A stretch of DNA of 64,000 nucleotides from Tsukamurella spumae (GTDB lineage: Bacteria > Actinomycetota > Actinomycetes > Mycobacteriales > Mycobacteriaceae). The stretch is from contig NZ_JAAXOQ010000008.1 of the NCBI RefSeq assembly GCF_012396015.1, positions 1 through 64,000 of the forward strand. The letters are read 5' to 3'. A program made the position numbers and the translations under genes. Positions 13,713 to 54,037 of this stretch are shown here, one piece after another (positions within the stretch are counted from its first letter, which is position 1; the number at the start of each line of letters is the position of its first letter). The notes under the pieces were generated by a model. The model searched no databases, was not told where the DNA came from, and worked only from the letters and a program-made list of their open reading frames with translations.

Positions 13713-13826
13713 CTCCCCCCCGATCCGTTCCCTCCCCACCGGACCGCCGGGTGAATCGGTGGGGAGGGAACGAATCGGGGGGAGCGCTGGCGTTGTGGTG
13801 GGGAGGCGACGAACGGGGTGGGGCGG
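13713..13826. repeat. Long hairpin element, copy 1 (beside DUF559 gene A)
   Basis: The left arm at 13713-13741 pairs with the right arm at 13757-13784 over about 27 bp, with a single C-A mismatch at 13725/13773 and one bulged C. The loop is 15 nt. The core reads CGTTCCCTCCCCACCG against CGGTGGGGAGGGAACG. After the spacer GCGCTGGCGTTG a second, degenerate right arm follows (13796-13823). Copy 2 lies 1.1 kb away in the same orientation. The two copies differ by a T-A to A-T exchange inside the stem (13733/13765 against 14896/14928). Confidence 0.85.
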
Positions 13827-13829
13827 TGA

Positions 13830-14769
13830 TCACGTGAGCGGCGGGACGACGAGGCCGTGGCGGGCCATGGCCGGTAGGAGGAGCGCGTGCAGTGCGCCGG
13901 TGCGCGTGAGGTGCCGCCACTTCCATCGGACCACCTCGATCCCGGAGTCCGTGAACTCGGCCGCGCGCTCCTTCTCCTCCGACAGCGCGACGGCTCGCTC
14001 CGCCGCGGTCTCCCCGTACTTGCTCTCGCCGTCGAACTCGCCGATCAGTGTCCCCCAGTCGAAGTCGGCGAAGTACGACCGACCGCCGATCCGGTGTTCG
14101 GTCTGGAGCGGGGGACGGGGCAGCTTCCAGTTCAGCATGTCGACCCGCGACCACGACTCACCGGGCGACTCGCTGTGTTCCACCGAAAGGTCCAGTGCAC
14201 GTTGGGCGTTGACCGTGCCTCGACGGCCGCGGAGGCGATCGAGGCAGCCCTGCAGTTCCGCGAGGGGCACGGGCGCCGGATCGTCGGGTTCCGGGTAGCG
14301 ACGGACCAGACGGACCGCGTCGAACGCGCAGACGCCGCGGATCAGATCGTCGCTCATCGCGACATCGACGGCCGTGCGGGCGCGCGAGGTGACGGGGATG
14401 CCGTCCACCGTTGTGGTCTCCCCGGGGAGGATCGGACGAGGGTGCAGGTGCACCTTGCCGGCCTTGCCGCCCCGGACGCCGCCACCGTGGTCGCGGCCGG
14501 TGGTGAAGTGGACATGGGTGCGCTGCGGATTGATGAAGGGGATGTCGTGGAGCGCCGCGGCGCTCTCGTGGCTGACCACGTGGATGCGGTTCACGCTGGC
14601 CGCCCGCACGCGCAGCAGGTACCGCACCCAGGGCTTGCTTGCTGTCGTCCGGCTCGGTGTACATGCCGCTCGCCAGCCGTTCGAGTGCGCCGGCGGCCAC
14701 GGCGCGGCTGATGTCGCCACTGCTCCACCCCGTCGACTCCAGATGCCCCCGCGTCAGGATCGTCCCCAT
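13830..14769 (-). pseudogene. Frameshifted AbiEi-type HTH plus DUF559 nuclease-fold gene (copy A)
   Basis: The N-terminus reads MGTILTRGHLESTGWSSGDI, a winged-helix AbiEi-like segment. After about 43 codons the frame breaks. The rest continues in another frame through VVSHESAAALHDIPF, RARTAVDVAMSDDL and the DUF559 core FADFDWGTLIGEFDGESKYG, then EKERAAEFTDSGIEVVRWKW. The break sits at 14633-14643, where AAGC is present twice; removing one 4-bp unit restores DDSKPWVRYL, matching the intact paralog at 51839-52777. The Asp, Glu and Lys of the PD-(D/E)xK-like core remain. A GTG at 14826 could start it earlier. Recent inactivation or sequencing error are both possible. Confidence 0.8.
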
Positions 14770-14818
14770 CTCCGCAGTGAACCAGCTCCCGCCGCCGCGA
14801 ATGCCCGCGGAGACACGG

Positions 14819-14877: not shown

Positions 14878-14986
14878 TCCCCCCGATCCGTTCCCACCCC
14901 ACCGGAACGCCGGGTGAATCGGTGGGGTGGGAACGAATCGGGGGGAGCGCTGGCGTTGCGGTGGGGAGGCGACGGATCGGTGGGGG
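14878..14986. repeat. Long hairpin element, copy 2 (beside DUF559 gene A)
   Basis: The left arm at 14878-14904 pairs with the right arm at 14920-14946 through 27 positions with one C-A mismatch, the same one as in copy 1. The core is CGTTCCCACCCCACCG against CGGTGGGGTGGGAACG. The loop GAACGCCGGGTGAAT differs from copy 1 by one base. The AGCGCTGGCGTTG spacer and a second right arm (14959-14986) follow, ending 1 bp before the lhr stop. It may also act as the lhr terminator. Confidence 0.85.
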
Positions 14987-14987
14987 C

Positions 14988-17900
14988 TCAGCGAATGCGA
15001 AGGCCCTTCGGGGTGCGGGCGAACCCCGCGGCGGCCAGCGCCCCGGCGAGGGGGGAGGTGAGGGCGGGCGCACCGTCGACCTTCTCGACGGTGAGGCCGC
15101 CGAGTCCCGGTGCCGCCACCGCGAGCGCCGTGAACGCGGCCTCCGGCACGTCGGTGAAGGTGAGCAGCGTGCGGCCGCCGCGCTCGACGAACAGGGCCAG
15201 GGCACCGTCGACGAGGACCACGACGGCACCGGCCTTGCGGCCCGGGCGGGCACCCTCGTCGCCGCGCTCGGGCCAGGGGAGCGCCGCGCCGTAGGGGTTC
15301 GCGGGATCGGTGGCGGCCAGCACCAGCGCGGAGCTCTCGCCCCGCTGCTGGGCCCGCTCGAGGGCGGACGCCGCGTCGCGCAGCGCGTCGACGGTGCCGC
15401 CCCGCGCGAACTGCGCCGCCCCGAGGCGCTCGATGAAGTAGCCGCGCCGCGCCTTACCGGACTCCTCGAAGGCCGCGAGGGTGCGGTACACGCGGGCGAA
15501 GCCGCCCTCGACGTGCTCGGCCATCACCGCGCCGCGGGTCACCACGCCGTACCGCTCGAGGAGTTGCTCGGCGATGGCCGCCGACTGCTCGGTGGCGCTC
15601 GCCTCCGCCGGGGCGGGCGGCAGCGACCACCGCCCGGCGACCATGGGCGGCGCCTGGTCGACCGCCACGCGGAACCGGGCGCGCGGCGCGCGGCGCGGCG
15701 TGCGATGCGCGGTGGACCGGCGGCCGCCGGCGAGCCGGGCGCGGACCGGGGCGAAGGTGTCGCCCGTGAGGCGGCCCGTCCAGACCAGGTCCCACAGCGC
15801 CTCGGGCGTCGCGCCGGTGAGCTGGCGGTAGAAGTAGGCGCCGCCGCCGCGCACGGCGTCCTCGATCGCCTCGTGCGCCGCAGTGGTCTCGAGGGCGTCG
15901 GGCGGGGGCAGGGTGAGCGGCGCCAGATCCGCGGGATGCAGGGCGATCCAGCCGTCCTGTGCGCCGATCGCGCCGTGCCCCGTCCACACCACCTCGCCCG
16001 CCGCGGTGAGCTCGTCGAGCATCGCGGGGGAGTAATCGGCGACCCGCTGCGGCAGGACCAGGGACTCCCATGCGGAGGCGGGGATCGGCACACCCGCGAG
16101 CTGGTCGATCACCGTTGCGACGCCGTCGATGCCGCGCAGCGGCGTCTTCAGGTGGTGCCAGCCGGCGAGGAACTCGGCGTACGCCAGCTCCGGCACCGGC
16201 TCCACGTCCTGCCGCAGGCGGGCGAGGCTGCGCCGGCGGATGCGGCGCAGTACATCGGCATCGCAGAACTGGGGGACGCCGTCGGTGTCGGCGGCACCGT
16301 CGGACTCGGGGACGAACCGGCCCTCGATGACCCGGCGCGCCCCGACCAGCTCCGTCAGCGCGCGCTGCACGACCGCGACGCCCAGCCCGTAGCGGCGAGC
16401 GACCTCGCCGGCCGTGAACGGGCCGTGCCGCCGGGCGTAGCGCGACACGAGGTCGCCGATCGGGTCCGGTACCTCGGCGGTGAACGCCGACGCGATGCCC
16501 GGCTGCAGTGGCACGCCGAGCCCGTCGCGCAACCGCGCCGCGTCCTCGACGGCGGCGATCCACCCCTCGCCGTACTCGAACACCCTTCCGGCGGTGAGGA
16601 GCTCGTCGACCGCGCCGGGCGCACCGTCGGACCGCTCGGCGATCTCCGGGCGGCTGAGCGGACCCAGCTCGCGGATGAGGTCGGCCACCTGCTCGACGGT
16701 GCGCGCGCGGTAGCCGGGCGCGGTGCGCTGCAGCTGCGCGGCGATCTCCTGCAGGATGTCGGCGTCGAGCAGCTCGGTGAGCTCGACCCGACCGAGCAGC
16801 TGGGACAGCACGGCGGGGTCGAGGCTGAGCACGGCCGCGCGGCGTTCGGCCAGCGGGGCGTCGCCCTCGTACATGAACGCGCCGACGTAGCTGAACAGCA
16901 GCGAGGCCGCGAAGGGCGACGGTGCCGCGGTCTCGACCTCCGCGAGCCGGACGGTGCGCGCGGCGAGCGTCCGGTGGACGGCGATGAGCTCCGGCACGTC
17001 GTAGACGTCCTGCAGGCACTCGCGGACGGCTTCCAGGACGATGGGGAACTGCGGGAACCCGCGCGCGACCTCGAGGAGCTGGCTCGCCCGCTGCCGCTGC
17101 TGCCAGAGCGGGGCGCGCTTGCCGGGGTCGCGGCGGGGCAGCAGCAGCGCCCGCGCGGCGCATTCGCGGAACCGCGACGCGAACAGGGCGCTCGAGCCCA
17201 CGGCCTCGGTGACCAGGTCGTCGATCTCGTCCGGTTCGAAGCGGAACAGCTCGGCACCCGGCGGGGAGTCGTCGGTGTCGGGCAGCCGGACGATGATGCC
17301 GTCGTCCGTCGCGGTGACGGCGCCGGACAGGCCCAGCGCGGCGTTCAGTCGCGCGCCGATCGCGAGCGCCCACGGCGCGTGCACCTTCATCCCGAGCGGG
17401 GAGTGCAGCGCGACCCGCCAGTCGCCCAGCTCGTCGCGGAACCGCTCGACCACCAGCGTGCGGTCGGTGGGGAGCACGCCGGTGGCCCGCTGCTGCTCGT
17501 CGAGCAGGGCGATGAGGTTGTCGGTCGCCCAGTCGCCCAGGCCCACCTCCTGCGCCCGGGCGCGCTGCTCGTCGGGGCCCAGCGCGCCGAACTCGCGGGT
17601 GAACCGCCCGATGGCGCGGCCCAGTTCCGCGGGCCGGCCCACGGTGTCGCCGATCCAGAAGGGCAGCCGCCCGGGCCGGCCGAAGGCGGGCGAGACCAGG
17701 ACGCGGTCGTGGGTGATCTCCTCGATCTTCCAGCTGGTGGCGCCGAGCGCGAAGACATCGCCCACGCGGGACTCGTAGACCATCTCCTCATCGAGCTCGC
17801 CCACGCGGGAGGCCTTCTCGCCCACCATGAACACACCGAACAGGCCGCGATCCGGGATGGCGCCGCCGGAGGTGACGGCGAGCCGGCCCGCGCCGGGGCG

Positions 17901-51163: not shown

Positions 51164-51640
51164 GTGTTCTCGAATCTCGGCATGGGAGAGATCCTCATGC
51201 TGGTCGTCGTGGGTCTGGTGATCCTGGGGCCGGAGCGGCTTCCCGGGGCGGTCAACTGGTTCTTCACGACCCTGCGGCAGGTGCGCGACTACGCCACCGG
51301 CGCCACGCAGCAGCTCAAGGACGAGATGGGCGGCGATTTCGACGCGATCCGCGAGCCCCTCCAGCAGATCCAGAACCTGCGCGGAATGACGCCCACCGCC
51401 ATCGTCACCAAGCACCTCCTCAACGGCGACGACTCGGTGGTCCGCGAGATCACCGACCAGGTGCGTTCCACCGCGGACTCGCTCAACCTGCGCAAGATGG
51501 TCGAGGGTGCCGGCGGTGAATCCGTCGCGGCTTCCTCGGCTCCGCTCGAAGTGCCCGCCGGCCCGGTCCCCACCATGCCGCGGATGCACACGCCGCTGAC
51601 CCCGGAGGAGCGCCCCCCGTTCGACCCCGACGCCACGTAG
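51164..51640 (+). CDS. tatB: Twin-arginine translocase subunit TatB
   Basis: This 158-residue protein reads [33 protein letters not shown], the TatB membrane helix with the conserved hinge. An amphipathic helix ([22 protein letters not shown]) and a longer charged tail distinguish it from TatA. It recognises Tat substrates such as the cholesterol oxidase at 32 kb. The start is GTG 51164. A 9-bp inverted repeat 16 bp after its stop belongs to the DUF559 repeat cluster and may terminate the transcript. Confidence 0.9.
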
Positions 51641-51655
51641 CCTCGCCGGGACGGT

Positions 51656-51746
51656 TTCGGCAGCGTGCTGCCGAAGTTCGTCATCGCGGCCAGTAGTCGG
51701 CAGCGTGGGAGGAATTCGGCAGCGGCGGTAGCACTTTCGGCAGCGG
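51656..51746. repeat. TTCGGCAGCG repeat cluster, upstream side of DUF559 gene B
   Basis: An outer palindrome TTCGGCAGC-GT-GCTGCCGAA (51656-51675) is followed by three same-orientation half-sites: GTCGGCAGCG (51696-51705), TTCGGCAGCG (51715-51724) and TTCGGCAGCG (51736-51745). The same motif recurs on the other side of the gene. It is not seen around the first DUF559 gene. Confidence 0.8.
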
Positions 51747-51838
51747 CGCGAGCATGCGCGGAGAGCGGGCGCGCGACGCCTGTGGATAACCCCGAACCTG
51801 TGGAAAGTGGCCCGATGGAGCGCAGCCGGAGGTCGGCG

Positions 51839-52777
51839 ATGGGGTTCACTGGCCGCATGGGGGAGATGTGGACACGGCGGCAGCTCAGGGCGATGGGGTG
51901 GAGCGACGCCCGGATAGCCCGCGCCGCCGAGGAGGGGGTCGAACGGCTGGCGCATGGTGTCTACGGCGTACGCGACGACGGAGCCCCGCAGTGGGAGCGC
52001 GATCGCGATCGGGTTCTCGCGGCTGCCCTGACCTGCGAGGCGGTAGTCAGTCACGAGAGCGCGGCCGTCCTGCACGGCATCCCGTTCCTGCGTCCGGACC
52101 GGCACTACGTCCACTTCACGATCGACCGCACGAGCGGCGGGTGGAAGCGGCGCAAGCAGTACGTGCACGCGCGTCCGCTGCCCGCCGACCAGATCACGAT
52201 CGTCGACGGGGTGCGCGTCACCTCCCGATGTCGGACCGCGGTGGACATCGCGATGTCCGGCGGGCTGGAGCGCGGCGTCTGTGCGTTCGATGCGGTCCGG
52301 CTGGTGCCGAGGTTTCCGCAGCCGGATGATCCGGGGCCGATTCCCCTCGCAGAGCTACAGGAGTGCCTGGAATCACTGGCTCGATGCCGGGGCGGTGCTA
52401 CGGCTCGTCGAGCCCTCGAGTTGTCGGTCGAATGCAGTGAGTCGGCGGGAGAGTCGCTGTCGCGGGTGCAGATGCTGACCGCCGGCCTCCCGATGCCGCG
52501 CCTGCAGACTCCGCACGTCATCGAGGAGGAGCTCTTCTACGCGGACTTCGATTGGGGCACTGTGACGGGCGAGTTCGACGGCCGCGCCAAGTACGGAGAC
52601 GAACCCGAGGAGATCAACGCCGCGCTCGCCGAGGAGAAGCGCCGCCACGAGCTCTTCGCCGCGGCGGGGATCGAGGTGGTCAGATGGCGCTGGCGCGCGC
52701 TGAACACGGCAGACGGTCTTCGTCGGCTACTTCTGCCGGCGCTGGCCCGCGGCGGACTGATCGAGGCCAGTGCATGA
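51839..52777 (+). CDS. AbiEi-type HTH plus DUF559 nuclease-fold protein (copy B, intact)
   Basis: This 312-residue protein has an N-terminal winged-helix AbiEi-like segment (EMWTRRQLRAMGWSDARIARAAEEGVERLAHGVYGV), a middle VVSHESAAVLHGIPF and SRCRTAVDIAMS region, and a C-terminal DUF559 domain. The Asp, Glu and Lys of a PD-(D/E)xK-like core are in YADFDWGTVTGEFDGRAKYG, followed by EEKRRHELFAAAGIEVVRWRW. It aligns along its length with frameshifted copy A. GGAGG precedes ATG 51839; GTG 51782 or ATG 51857 are alternatives. It lies between tatB and mrp and is flanked by repeats on both sides. Function is unknown; DNA binding or cleavage is inferred. Confidence 0.82.
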   Translation: MGFTGRMGEMWTRRQLRAMGWSDARIARAAEEGVERLAHGVYGVRDDGAPQWERDRDRVLAAALTCEAVVSHESAAVLHGIPFLRPDRHYVHFTIDRTSGGWKRRKQYVHARPLPADQITIVDGVRVTSRCRTAVDIAMSGGLERGVCAFDAVRLVPRFPQPDDPGPIPLAELQECLESLARCRGGATARRALELSVECSESAGESLSRVQMLTAGLPMPRLQTPHVIEEELFYADFDWGTVTGEFDGRAKYGDEPEEINAALAEEKRRHELFAAAGIEVVRWRWRALNTADGLRRLLLPALARGGLIEASA

Positions 52778-52796
52778 GCGCCGACGCGCCCGCGGT

Positions 52797-52875
52797 TTCG
52801 GCAGCGCGCGGACGAGACTGCTCAACGCTGCAGATCGACGGCAGCGCTCGCGAACTTCGGCAGCGCGCTGCCGAA
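52797..52875. repeat. TTCGGCAGCG repeat cluster, downstream side of DUF559 gene B
   Basis: A half-site TTCGGCAGCG (52797-52806), a partial ACGGCAGCG (near 52838-52846) and a perfect 20-bp palindrome TTCGGCAGCGCGCTGCCGAA (52856-52875) lie between the DUF559 stop and the convergent mrp stop. As upstream, the full palindrome is outermost and the half-sites are inner. Confidence 0.8.
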
Positions 52876-52900
52876 ACCTCTGGGCGAGCGGACCGTCGGG

Positions 52901-54037
52901 CTACAGGTGGCGGGTGGTGTCGATCCCCAGGGACATGCCGGCCAGGCCGCGCTTGCGGACGGCCAGCTTGTCGGCGATGCTGCGCAGCGCCGCGCCGGTG
53001 GGGGAGTCGGGCGCGGAGAGCACCACGGGCGTTCCGGCGTCGCCGGCCTCGCGCAGCTGCGGATCCAGCGGGATCTGGCCGAGCAGCGGAACATCGGCAC
53101 CCACCGCGCGGGTCAGGCGGGCCGCGACCTGCTCGCCGCCGCCGGAGCCGAAGACGTCGAGGACGGTGCCGTCGGGCAGCGTCAGGCCGGACATGTTCTC
53201 GATGACCCCGGCCACGCGCTGGCGGGTCTGCAGCGCGATGGCGCCGGCTCGCTCGGCGACCTCGGCGGCCGCTGTCTGCGGGGTGGTGACCACGAGGATC
53301 TCGGCGCCGGGGATGAGCTGCGCGATGGAGATCGCCACGTCGCCGGTGCCGGGCGGCAGGTCCAGCAGCAGCACGTCGAGATCGCCCCAGAACACGTCGG
53401 CGAGGAACTGCTGCAGCGCGCGGTGCAGCATCGGTCCGCGCCAGACGACGGGCGTGTTTCCGGTGGTGAACATGGCCACCGAGATGACCTTCACGCCGTG
53501 CGCTTGCGGCGGCATGATCATCGAATCGACCTGGGTGGGTCGCGCGTCGGTGCCCATCATGCGGGGAACGGAGTGGCCGTAGATGTCGGCGTCGAGAACG
53601 CCCACGGACAGGCCGCGCGCCGCCAGTGACGCCGCGAGGTTCACTGTCACCGAGCTCTTGCCCACGCCGCCCTTGCCCGACGCGACCGCGTACACGCGGG
53701 TCAGCGAGCCGGGCTGGGCGAACGGGATGACGGGCTCGGCCTTGTCGCCGCGCACCGTCTTGCGCAGCTCGGCACGCTGCTCGTCGTTCATCACGTCCAG
53801 CTCGACGCGCACCTCGCCGGTGCCGGGAACGTCCGCGACCGCGGTCCGCACCCGGTCCACGATCTGCGTGCGCATGGGACACGCCGAGGTGGTCAGGTAC
53901 ACCTCGACGTCCACCGACGAGTCGGACTGCACCGCGACCGATTTCACCATCCCCAGATCGGTGATCGGCTTGCCGATCTCGGGGTCGTTCACGGTGGCCA
54001 GGGCCGACCGGATCTTCTCTTCGGTAACCGCACTCAT
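52901..54037 (-). CDS. mrp: Mrp/ApbC-family iron-sulfur carrier ATPase
   Basis: This 378-residue protein has an N-terminal MIP18/DUF59 domain (EEKIRSALATVNDPEIGKPITDLGM, LTTSACPMRTQI). A P-loop ATPase follows with the deviant Walker A SGKGGVGKSS at residues 120-129, LDADIYGHSVPRMMG and LLLDLPPGTGD. It loads Fe-S clusters onto apoproteins. ATG 54037 is preceded by GGAGGACGTT. The neighbouring transglycosylase upstream matches the Rv1229c-Rv1230c order. Confidence 0.92.
   Translation of the reverse strand: MSAVTEEKIRSALATVNDPEIGKPITDLGMVKSVAVQSDSSVDVEVYLTTSACPMRTQIVDRVRTAVADVPGTGEVRVELDVMNDEQRAELRKTVRGDKAEPVIPFAQPGSLTRVYAVASGKGGVGKSSVTVNLAASLAARGLSVGVLDADIYGHSVPRMMGTDARPTQVDSMIMPPQAHGVKVISVAMFTTGNTPVVWRGPMLHRALQQFLADVFWGDLDVLLLDLPPGTGDVAISIAQLIPGAEILVVTTPQTAAAEVAERAGAIALQTRQRVAGVIENMSGLTLPDGTVLDVFGSGGGEQVAARLTRAVGADVPLLGQIPLDPQLREAGDAGTPVVLSAPDSPTGAALRSIADKLAVRKRGLAGMSLGIDTTRHL

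Follow-up and report, generated by a model that had tools for sequence, protein, structure and literature searches.

Two related genes, each set between repeats of its own

The window (the whole 64-kb stretch of Tsukamurella spumae DNA analysed here) contains two genes of one protein family, A and B, and both are enclosed by palindromic repeat units (Table 1). Gene A encodes about 320 aa and is flanked on one side by a TatB-like gene, which scores below the Pfam cut-off, and on the other by Mrp/NUBPL; a thioesterase and Lhr complete the neighbours of A and B. The frame of paralog B is broken in this draft assembly, and its same-place relatives in genomes G006 (L047) and G007 (L036) have no internal stop.

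Table 1. Genes, repeat units and half-sites of the A and B loci in the window.
Feature	Position	Strand	Remarks
Gene A	51815..52777	+	Predicted AbiEi-type winged helix, middle domain and C-terminal DUF559-like domain; start codon putative
Left (5') unit of A	51653..51745		Palindrome 51656-51675 plus CGGCAGCG half-sites
CGGCAGCG half-sites in left unit of A	51658+, 51666- (1 mismatch), 51698+, 51717+, 51738+		Register 0/40/59
DnaA-box-like TGTGGATA	51781..51788	+	Between left unit and gene A
Right (3') unit of A	52793..52878		Half-sites 52799+, 52826- (1 mismatch), 52839+, 52858+, 52866-; register 0/40/59
3'-side unit of B	13714..13826		GGTGGGGA-type half-sites 13758, 13797, 13817; register 0/39/59
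Paralog B	about 13830..14790	-	Same family as A; frame broken in this genome
5'-side unit of B	14879..14990		Half-sites 14921, 14960, 14979; register 0/39/58

The first-pass annotation had described two homologous proteins, each with its own type of flanking palindrome, and this description holds: flank-to-flank scores reach 28.5 for A and 86.5 for B, against a maximum of 21.0 among 278 control positions in the window. The stretch annotated around A (51656..52875) runs between the outer ends of the palindromes TTCGGCAGCGTGCTGCCGAA (51656-51675) and TTCGGCAGCGCGCTGCCGAA (52856-52875), which, at up to two mismatches, occur at no other place in the 64 kb and in none of 100 shuffles. Longer matches also connect the flanks of A (73 bp in direct orientation at 71%, 54 bp inverted at 80%). 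The repeat on both flanks of B is palindromic, about 109 bp long, 92% identical and different from the A unit; its seed CCCCCCGATYCGTTCCC (2 mismatches) has four matches in the window, all at the flanks of B, with 0.14 expected. Chance was rejected, or rated low, as the source of the repeats on the strength of control positions, shuffles and shifted segments. A known RNA family was likewise rejected, as Rfam gives no match at E<=1 in 51600-52920.

The TGTGGATA site that precedes gene A, which we take to be DnaA-box-like, is the sole occurrence of TGTGGATA/TATCCACA in the window. Such a site is found upstream of the gene in 48 of 136 relatives (25/65 in the genus and 23/71 in other genera) and downstream in none of the 136, the relatives from other genera being drawn from the best 80 of 498. 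With a looser pattern, two boxes 18-20 bp apart are seen at many loci of the genus, and at some relatives' loci the site overlaps a possible GTG start.

A probable winged helix and nuclease-like domain

PADLOC AbiEi models match all 25 aligned relatives; within protein A the match spans about residues 18-150, with the predicted AbiEi-type winged helix at about residues 17-56. Pfam returns for A only AbiEi matches, all sub-threshold, and none to DUF559 (PF04480) at E<=1. Among the 25 family members, three AbiEi families are the only ones matched at E<=0.01; PF04480 (0/25) and transposase domains, including HUH (Y1) transposases, are thus absent from that scan. NCBIfam matches none of the 25 at E<=0.01, and no solved structure matches A in a PDB profile comparison (best E 0.11).

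The C-terminal part came to light through profile-profile comparison. The A family aligns in hhalign with seven DUF559 proteins of the same genome over residues 17-299 (probability 99.3, E 1e-20), and all seven match both PF04480 and REase_MTES_1575. In the C-terminal third, E213, D244, E253, D255 and K259 are invariant in the 25 aligned relatives. An invariant E, D, E pattern is common to both sets, whereas a histidine invariant in the seven DUF559 proteins is not invariant here, the invariant K259 lying near that place. As the plain Pfam match is absent, the link to DUF559 (PF04480)/MTES_1575/Vsr-like nucleases comes from the profile comparison, by which A appears to be a divergent DUF559-like protein. 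The label DUF559, which the annotation had given to both proteins, thus seems right in kind, although A lacks the Pfam match and B has a broken frame. Judged from these alignments, the protein would join an AbiEi-type winged helix to a divergent DUF559-like domain whose PD-(D/E)XK-like site is invariant. The winged helix, with a pairwise identity of 0.378 among relatives, is more variable than the nuclease region (0.473), which would fit a changing specificity.

Paired flanks across the family

For flank comparisons, gene ends were set by the protein match, with protein pieces taken from translated BLAST, and flanks were called paired above a score of 21, the largest value among the 278 control positions. 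A relative at E<=0.001 is present in each of the 16 genus genomes examined. Within the genus, the two flanks share a unit at 58 of 65 loci, versus 0 of 278 control positions; the seven loci at or below the threshold are L021, L033 (at a contig end), L037, L046, L064, L068 and L076. The set of 65 leaves aside the weaker L074 and L078-L081 and the C54 gene (L017/L084), without tblastn match at E 1e-3, as well as L085, a duplicate of L015.

Beyond this set, we sampled the best 80 of 498 confirmed relatives in named genome contigs; two loci with flanks too short (L109 and L138) were dropped, and 61 of the remaining 78 exceed 21. In other genera, still among the best 80 of 498, flanks are paired at 54 of 71 loci, versus 1 of 149 shifted control pairs, and the other 17 show no pairing at the threshold. 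Above-threshold loci in this sample include Gordonia, Williamsia, Rhodococcus, Antrihabitans, Pseudonocardia, Nakamurella and Hoyosella. Where inspected (21 loci), the shared stretch usually measures 55-110 bp, and a quasi-palindromic build, in which one pair of half-sites lies outside another, is common.

Bracketing of the two genes by palindrome types of their own is confirmed, and it is more general than the window alone showed. The expectation that DUF559 genes in general share flanking palindromes stands for this subfamily and fails for PF04480 as a whole: only 4 of the 11 PF04480 hits in this genome have paired flank repeats and seven have none, which makes flank pairing a subfamily trait. 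Three of the four (L006, L009 and L011) were recognized by scores obtained with eleven assumed gene lengths and hence biased upwards, and the fourth (L008/C54) by exact 23-nt palindromes on both sides. Among the DUF559 genes of this genome, L009 (C39) has 72-bp inverted ends, and L084 (C54) is flanked on both sides by hairpins with exact 23-nt stems.

Geometry and folding of the units

Motifs differ among loci while half-site geometry recurs. Among the best 80 of 498 relatives, 50 of 71 loci have same-strand 7-mers spaced exactly 19 bp apart in one flank or both, 26 of them in both, compared with 53 of 1864 places chosen at random in the window and 19 of 274 shifted segments taken from these loci. 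The spacing is present even at 9 of the 17 loci from other genera whose flanks were not paired by score. Within the genus, 49 of 65 loci show a spacing of 18-20 bp, versus 363 of 1864 random places. The unit is a palindrome, about 60-110 bp in length, and as a rule it carries several half-sites on one strand at intervals of 19 bp. With a register of 0/40/59 on both sides of A and 0/39/58-59 at B, two paralogs with two motifs have a single layout, which suggests that the protein may impose the geometry.

The units also fold back on themselves. As single-stranded DNA, six of them fold more strongly than shuffles (z from -3.3 to -12.5), and the DNA fold z of the A units is -4.6 on the left and -5.9 on the right. 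The arms covary: 11 pairs changed on both sides in 17 Williamsia units, against 6.6 after shuffling (1 of 500). Nine Gordonia malaquae units give a less clear signal (15 cells against 7.7, 1 of 500; 8 pairs against 5.6, 53 of 500). Fold-back and covariation fit recognition of a hairpin or cruciform, a terminator function and templated correction of palindromes alike, and the covariation could stem from palindrome-templated mutation.

Dispersed copies and their placement

Units are also found away from the genes. Four more full-length copies of the 88-bp right unit of A lie elsewhere in the genome (C22, C2, C6 and C23; 75-80% identity), with no family gene or gene remnant found beside them, and the B unit has three, one of them partial (C6:52884, C1:30692 and C34:78213; 78-83%). 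The two copy sets do not overlap, pointing to one repeat family for one protein. In G. malaquae, a 26-letter palindrome (3 mismatches) marks nine sites, two at the gene and seven elsewhere, and the complete unit, about 64 bp long, is almost perfectly palindromic. A Williamsia pattern has 33 matches at 21 places in Williamsia sp. 1138 (two at the gene, 19 elsewhere) and 10 matches in W. faeni (four at the gene, the rest at four other places). Control patterns matched nowhere in these three genomes. As two of the 19 places in Williamsia sp. 1138 are halves of one split unit and two more are at contig ends, a count of 17-18 units is safer. Cognate units are thus dispersed in all five cases examined (A, B, G. 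malaquae and, by one pattern, the two Williamsia), of which the last three were picked for their striking flank palindromes. A and B stand for this genome, which has three further families (L013, L015 and L016).

The split unit of Williamsia sp. 1138 (L291/L292; C7 and C10) is interrupted by an insert that carries inverted copies of one sequence at its two visible ends, a situation comparable with ISPpu9 in REPs. At one dispersed A unit of G000 (L212, 1740-1930), the corresponding stretch of G006 (L229, C18, 850-1550) is ~546 bp longer; there a lipoprotein-like ORF of 161 aa separates the unit from a repeat of its 24-bp end.

Across the 16 genomes, the A-type palindrome was compared with the presence of an A-clade gene. 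Forward matches to TTCGGCAGCGNGCTGCCGAA (2 mismatches) number 7 in G000, 4 in G006 and 5 in G007, all three carrying the closest A orthologs; the one match in G015, which also has an A-clade gene, is part of a unit. Single matches in G008, G010 and G011 are unlike the unit, so that with this one pattern A-type palindromes occur as units only in genomes with an A-clade gene. Nine of the 16 genomes have no match, among them the A-clade-gene carriers G002, G005 and G009; as the pattern was drawn from G000, related variants would be missed.

Judged by codon phase, the neighbouring genes converge at 22 of the 29 whole dispersed units and diverge at none, whereas random window positions, coding ones included, give 406 convergent and 409 divergent of 3000. 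The count leaves out two gene-flanking rows, both split-unit halves and one contig-end unit, all from Williamsia; some codon-phase margins are low, and C105 of G. malaquae disagrees with the ORF listing. Convergent placement holds for 12/15 units in Williamsia, 6/7 in G. malaquae and 4/4 for A; the three B copies (0/3) sit between co-directional genes. Placement of this kind, together with strong hairpins and covarying arms, is what ordinary bidirectional terminators would show. We nevertheless regard that reading as highly improbable, since ordinary terminators would not have sequence in common on the two sides of genes from one family, nor a motif that is specific to a lineage and spaced at 19 bp, and the B copies are co-directional.

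Unit turnover and a probable gain

One dispersed copy could be followed in related genomes. Around the C23 copy, G006 has DNA of 89-93% identity yet lacks the unit, which is also missing at the same place in G007, G009, G013 and G015 (G005 is rearranged there). The simplest reading is that the C23 copy was gained in the G000 lineage. Its boundaries are blurred and no target-site duplication is seen, nor was any seen by eye around the Williamsia units. The C6 copy is uninformative because G006 has about 1 kb of other DNA at that place.

Between tatB and mrp, 11 of 16 genomes have a family gene, G001 keeps a remnant with, by eye, several CGGGTGTG motifs, and four have none. In species that lack an intact gene A (L091, L097 and L098), an ORF judged by eye to encode a putative GNAT-like acetyltransferase occupies the tatB-mrp interval. 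The two flanks of one gene often resemble each other more than the best opposite flank from another species: own-flank versus cross-species scores at tatB-mrp are 64/33 for L024, 55.5/37.5 for L022, 40/22 for L025 and 59.5/13.5 for L027, and other loci behave similarly (119.5/13 for L042, 80/30 for L055). Own-flank similarity is not above the cross-species value for L012, L013, L021, L023 and most of the slow-changing cl4 and cl6, and comparisons involving the inverted L041 are confounded. Often, then, the two flanks change jointly.

With the locus held constant (49 loci with a flank score of 22 or more), the unit is shared (score >20) by 67 of 90 pairs with protein similarity >0.65, by 2 of 9 at 0.55-0.65 and by 0 of 15 at 0.45-0.55. 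Unit sharing at one place falls with protein similarity, so location does not set the repeat, and the alternative that it does was rejected on these figures. The check proposed in the annotation, whether repeats track protein clade or genome location, comes out for the protein at a fixed locus and only weakly across loci. Across loci, no whole unit is shared in any of 1062 pairs, 17 of which have a protein similarity of 0.68-0.73, and this counts against slow co-inheritance. The highest-scoring of these pairs (L028 with L015, 19.5; L028 with L031, 18.5) belong to one clade (97/96). Because cross-locus whole-unit scores never exceed 20, we used motif-level similarity instead. It tracks protein similarity weakly over 15 places (6-mers, 4 of 5000 permutations; 7-mers, 19; 8-mers, 105, the last not significant). 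For example, L040, at the tatB locus, clusters with cl12 proteins (100/99) and has their CGGGTG and not the CGGCAGCG of its neighbours. From these comparisons we conclude that the repeat and, probably, the specificity turn over quickly.

Different protein lineages occupy the tatB locus, and between species gene and units are inverted together relative to their neighbours at three places (L041; L046/L067; L063/L065). Both observations would suit a transposon-like or homing-like gene cassette of which the units are the ends and the dispersed units solo remnants left after gene loss, as would the patchy tatB-mrp gene with its remnant (by eye) in G001 and the own-genome DUF559 gene with 72-bp inverted ends. 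Most family genes, however, lie at shared orthologous places, no gene remnant accompanies the four A copies, no target-site duplication is seen, and solo units in Williamsia sp. 1138 far outnumber matched gene flanks. A phage or plasmid element was rejected as well: gene A used as query matches none of 50,697 phage records and, among 72,556 plasmid records, three, all from Tsukamurella. A mobile cassette is therefore improbable in our judgement.

Comparison with known systems

In RAYT/TnpAREP and REP/REPIN systems, as described in parts of PMC3116915 and PMC8266576, a low-copy gene adjoins its cognate palindromes, dispersed copies are mostly extragenic, and the repeat differs for each paralog. 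The family described here is similar in that cognate palindromes flank the gene (at 58/65 loci in the genus and 54/71 in other genera, the latter among the best 80 of 498), palindromes are also dispersed in extragenic DNA, A and B in one genome have distinct repeats with separate dispersed copies, and gene copy number is low. It differs in being actinobacterial, in having units to tens of copies rather than hundreds, and in a protein with a predicted AbiEi winged helix and PD-(D/E)XK-like domain in place of a HUH transposase. The GTAG foot is absent from the unit consensus of alignments A3 and A4, one GTAG lying inside the left unit of A. With neither HUH transposase nor GTAG foot, the family is not a RAYT; the resemblance to a REPtron would be one of layout only. 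Of the RAYT/REPIN-like pairing put forward in the annotation, the layout stands (flanks, dispersal, one repeat per paralog) and identity with RAYTs does not; as a RAYT/REPIN-like reading, it is supported for this protein subfamily.

AbiE type IV toxin-antitoxin antitoxins (AbiEi, Rv2827c) share the N-terminal winged-helix family with A and, like A, have several inverted repeats near the promoter, those of Rv2827c being bound as two pairs (PMC7319586). Unlike them, the A family has a nuclease-like C-terminal domain and units both beside the gene and dispersed. No AbiEii (DUF1814) toxin gene adjoins A or B among the neighbours of these two loci, on which ground AbiE toxin-antitoxin pairs were rejected for both. 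The paired flank units set the family apart from DUF559 genes too, since they are not seen at 7 of the 11 own-genome hits.

With MITEs and insertion sequences that have subterminal repeats, the family shares short, scattered inverted-repeat DNA linked to a gene that bears two ends of this kind. The dispersed copies here are single units instead of two ends around a spacer, no target-site duplication is seen at the C23 site or at Williamsia units, and the Pfam scan of the family found no transposase domain.

A model for the gene and its repeats

We lean, with modest confidence, towards an actinobacterial family of AbiEi-winged-helix/DUF559-like proteins, each paired with its own palindromic unit and maintaining REP-like replicators in trans. 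The observations behind it are the pairing, its lineage specificity, the geometry, the dispersal, the frequent joint change of flanks and the unit missing from five relatives. Two units bracket the gene and single units lie elsewhere, mostly between convergent genes. The winged helix would bind the half-sites, and by doing so the protein would also repress its own promoter. The nuclease domain may cut or nick the unit, perhaps in extruded form; repair of the break would then make both flanks alike and occasionally plant a unit elsewhere. A low-copy chromosomal gene could in this way keep a population of REP-like replicators going in trans. Binding and cutting are suggested by the protein family and the motif; copying of units by the protein, and hence movement of the repeats, we infer from the sequences compared. 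A part for a DUF559 protein in DNA damage has a precedent in Caulobacter, where the DNA-damage response of a methyltransferase mutant depends on VsrA (PMC12907096, in part). Counting against the model are the divergence of the dispersed A and B copies (75-83% identical) and the A-clade-gene genomes G002, G005 and G009 without a match to the G000-derived palindrome pattern. The loci with flanks unpaired at the threshold, the lack of a visible target-site duplication, the genes whose own flanks are no more alike than flanks from different species, and the weak tracking of motifs from locus to locus likewise speak against it.

The main rival is an AbiEi-like repressor for which the upstream unit is an operator and the downstream and dispersed units are further sites (a regulon, roadblocks or a chromosome organiser), the nuclease acting elsewhere or on invaders and the units spreading by other means. 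A winged helix of AbiEi type is what such a repressor would have, the 19-bp spacing fits binding by several subunits, and AbiEi and Rv2827c bind repeated inverted promoter sites (PMC7319586, in part). Taken alone, an operator leaves unexplained the matching downstream unit of 70-110 bp, the joint turnover of both flanks, the whole units between convergent genes and the absence of the C23 copy in relatives, and we hold it to be rather unlikely.

Maintenance of private units by the protein thus remains our preferred reading. Whether it amounts to a separate class of REP-like replicators, independent of HUH enzymes and belonging to Mycobacteriales and neighbouring Actinobacteria, in which largely place-bound proteins maintain, spread and homogenise their units while specificity and repeat co-evolve rapidly, we consider evenly balanced. 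The annotation had supposed such a class to be previously undescribed; among the open PMC papers listed, our search found no earlier report of gene-palindrome pairing for this family. REP/REPIN repeats are tied to one enzyme superfamily, HUH, in the parts of PMC3116915 and PMC8266576 that deal with them. If our reading is true, a second, unrelated protein family would have the REPtron layout, and gene-plus-private-repeat systems would have arisen more than once. Genes at present annotated as AbiEi antitoxin, DUF559 or hypothetical would then come with a lead, and the recurring 19-bp geometry would be open to direct tests in dozens of natural protein-DNA pairs.
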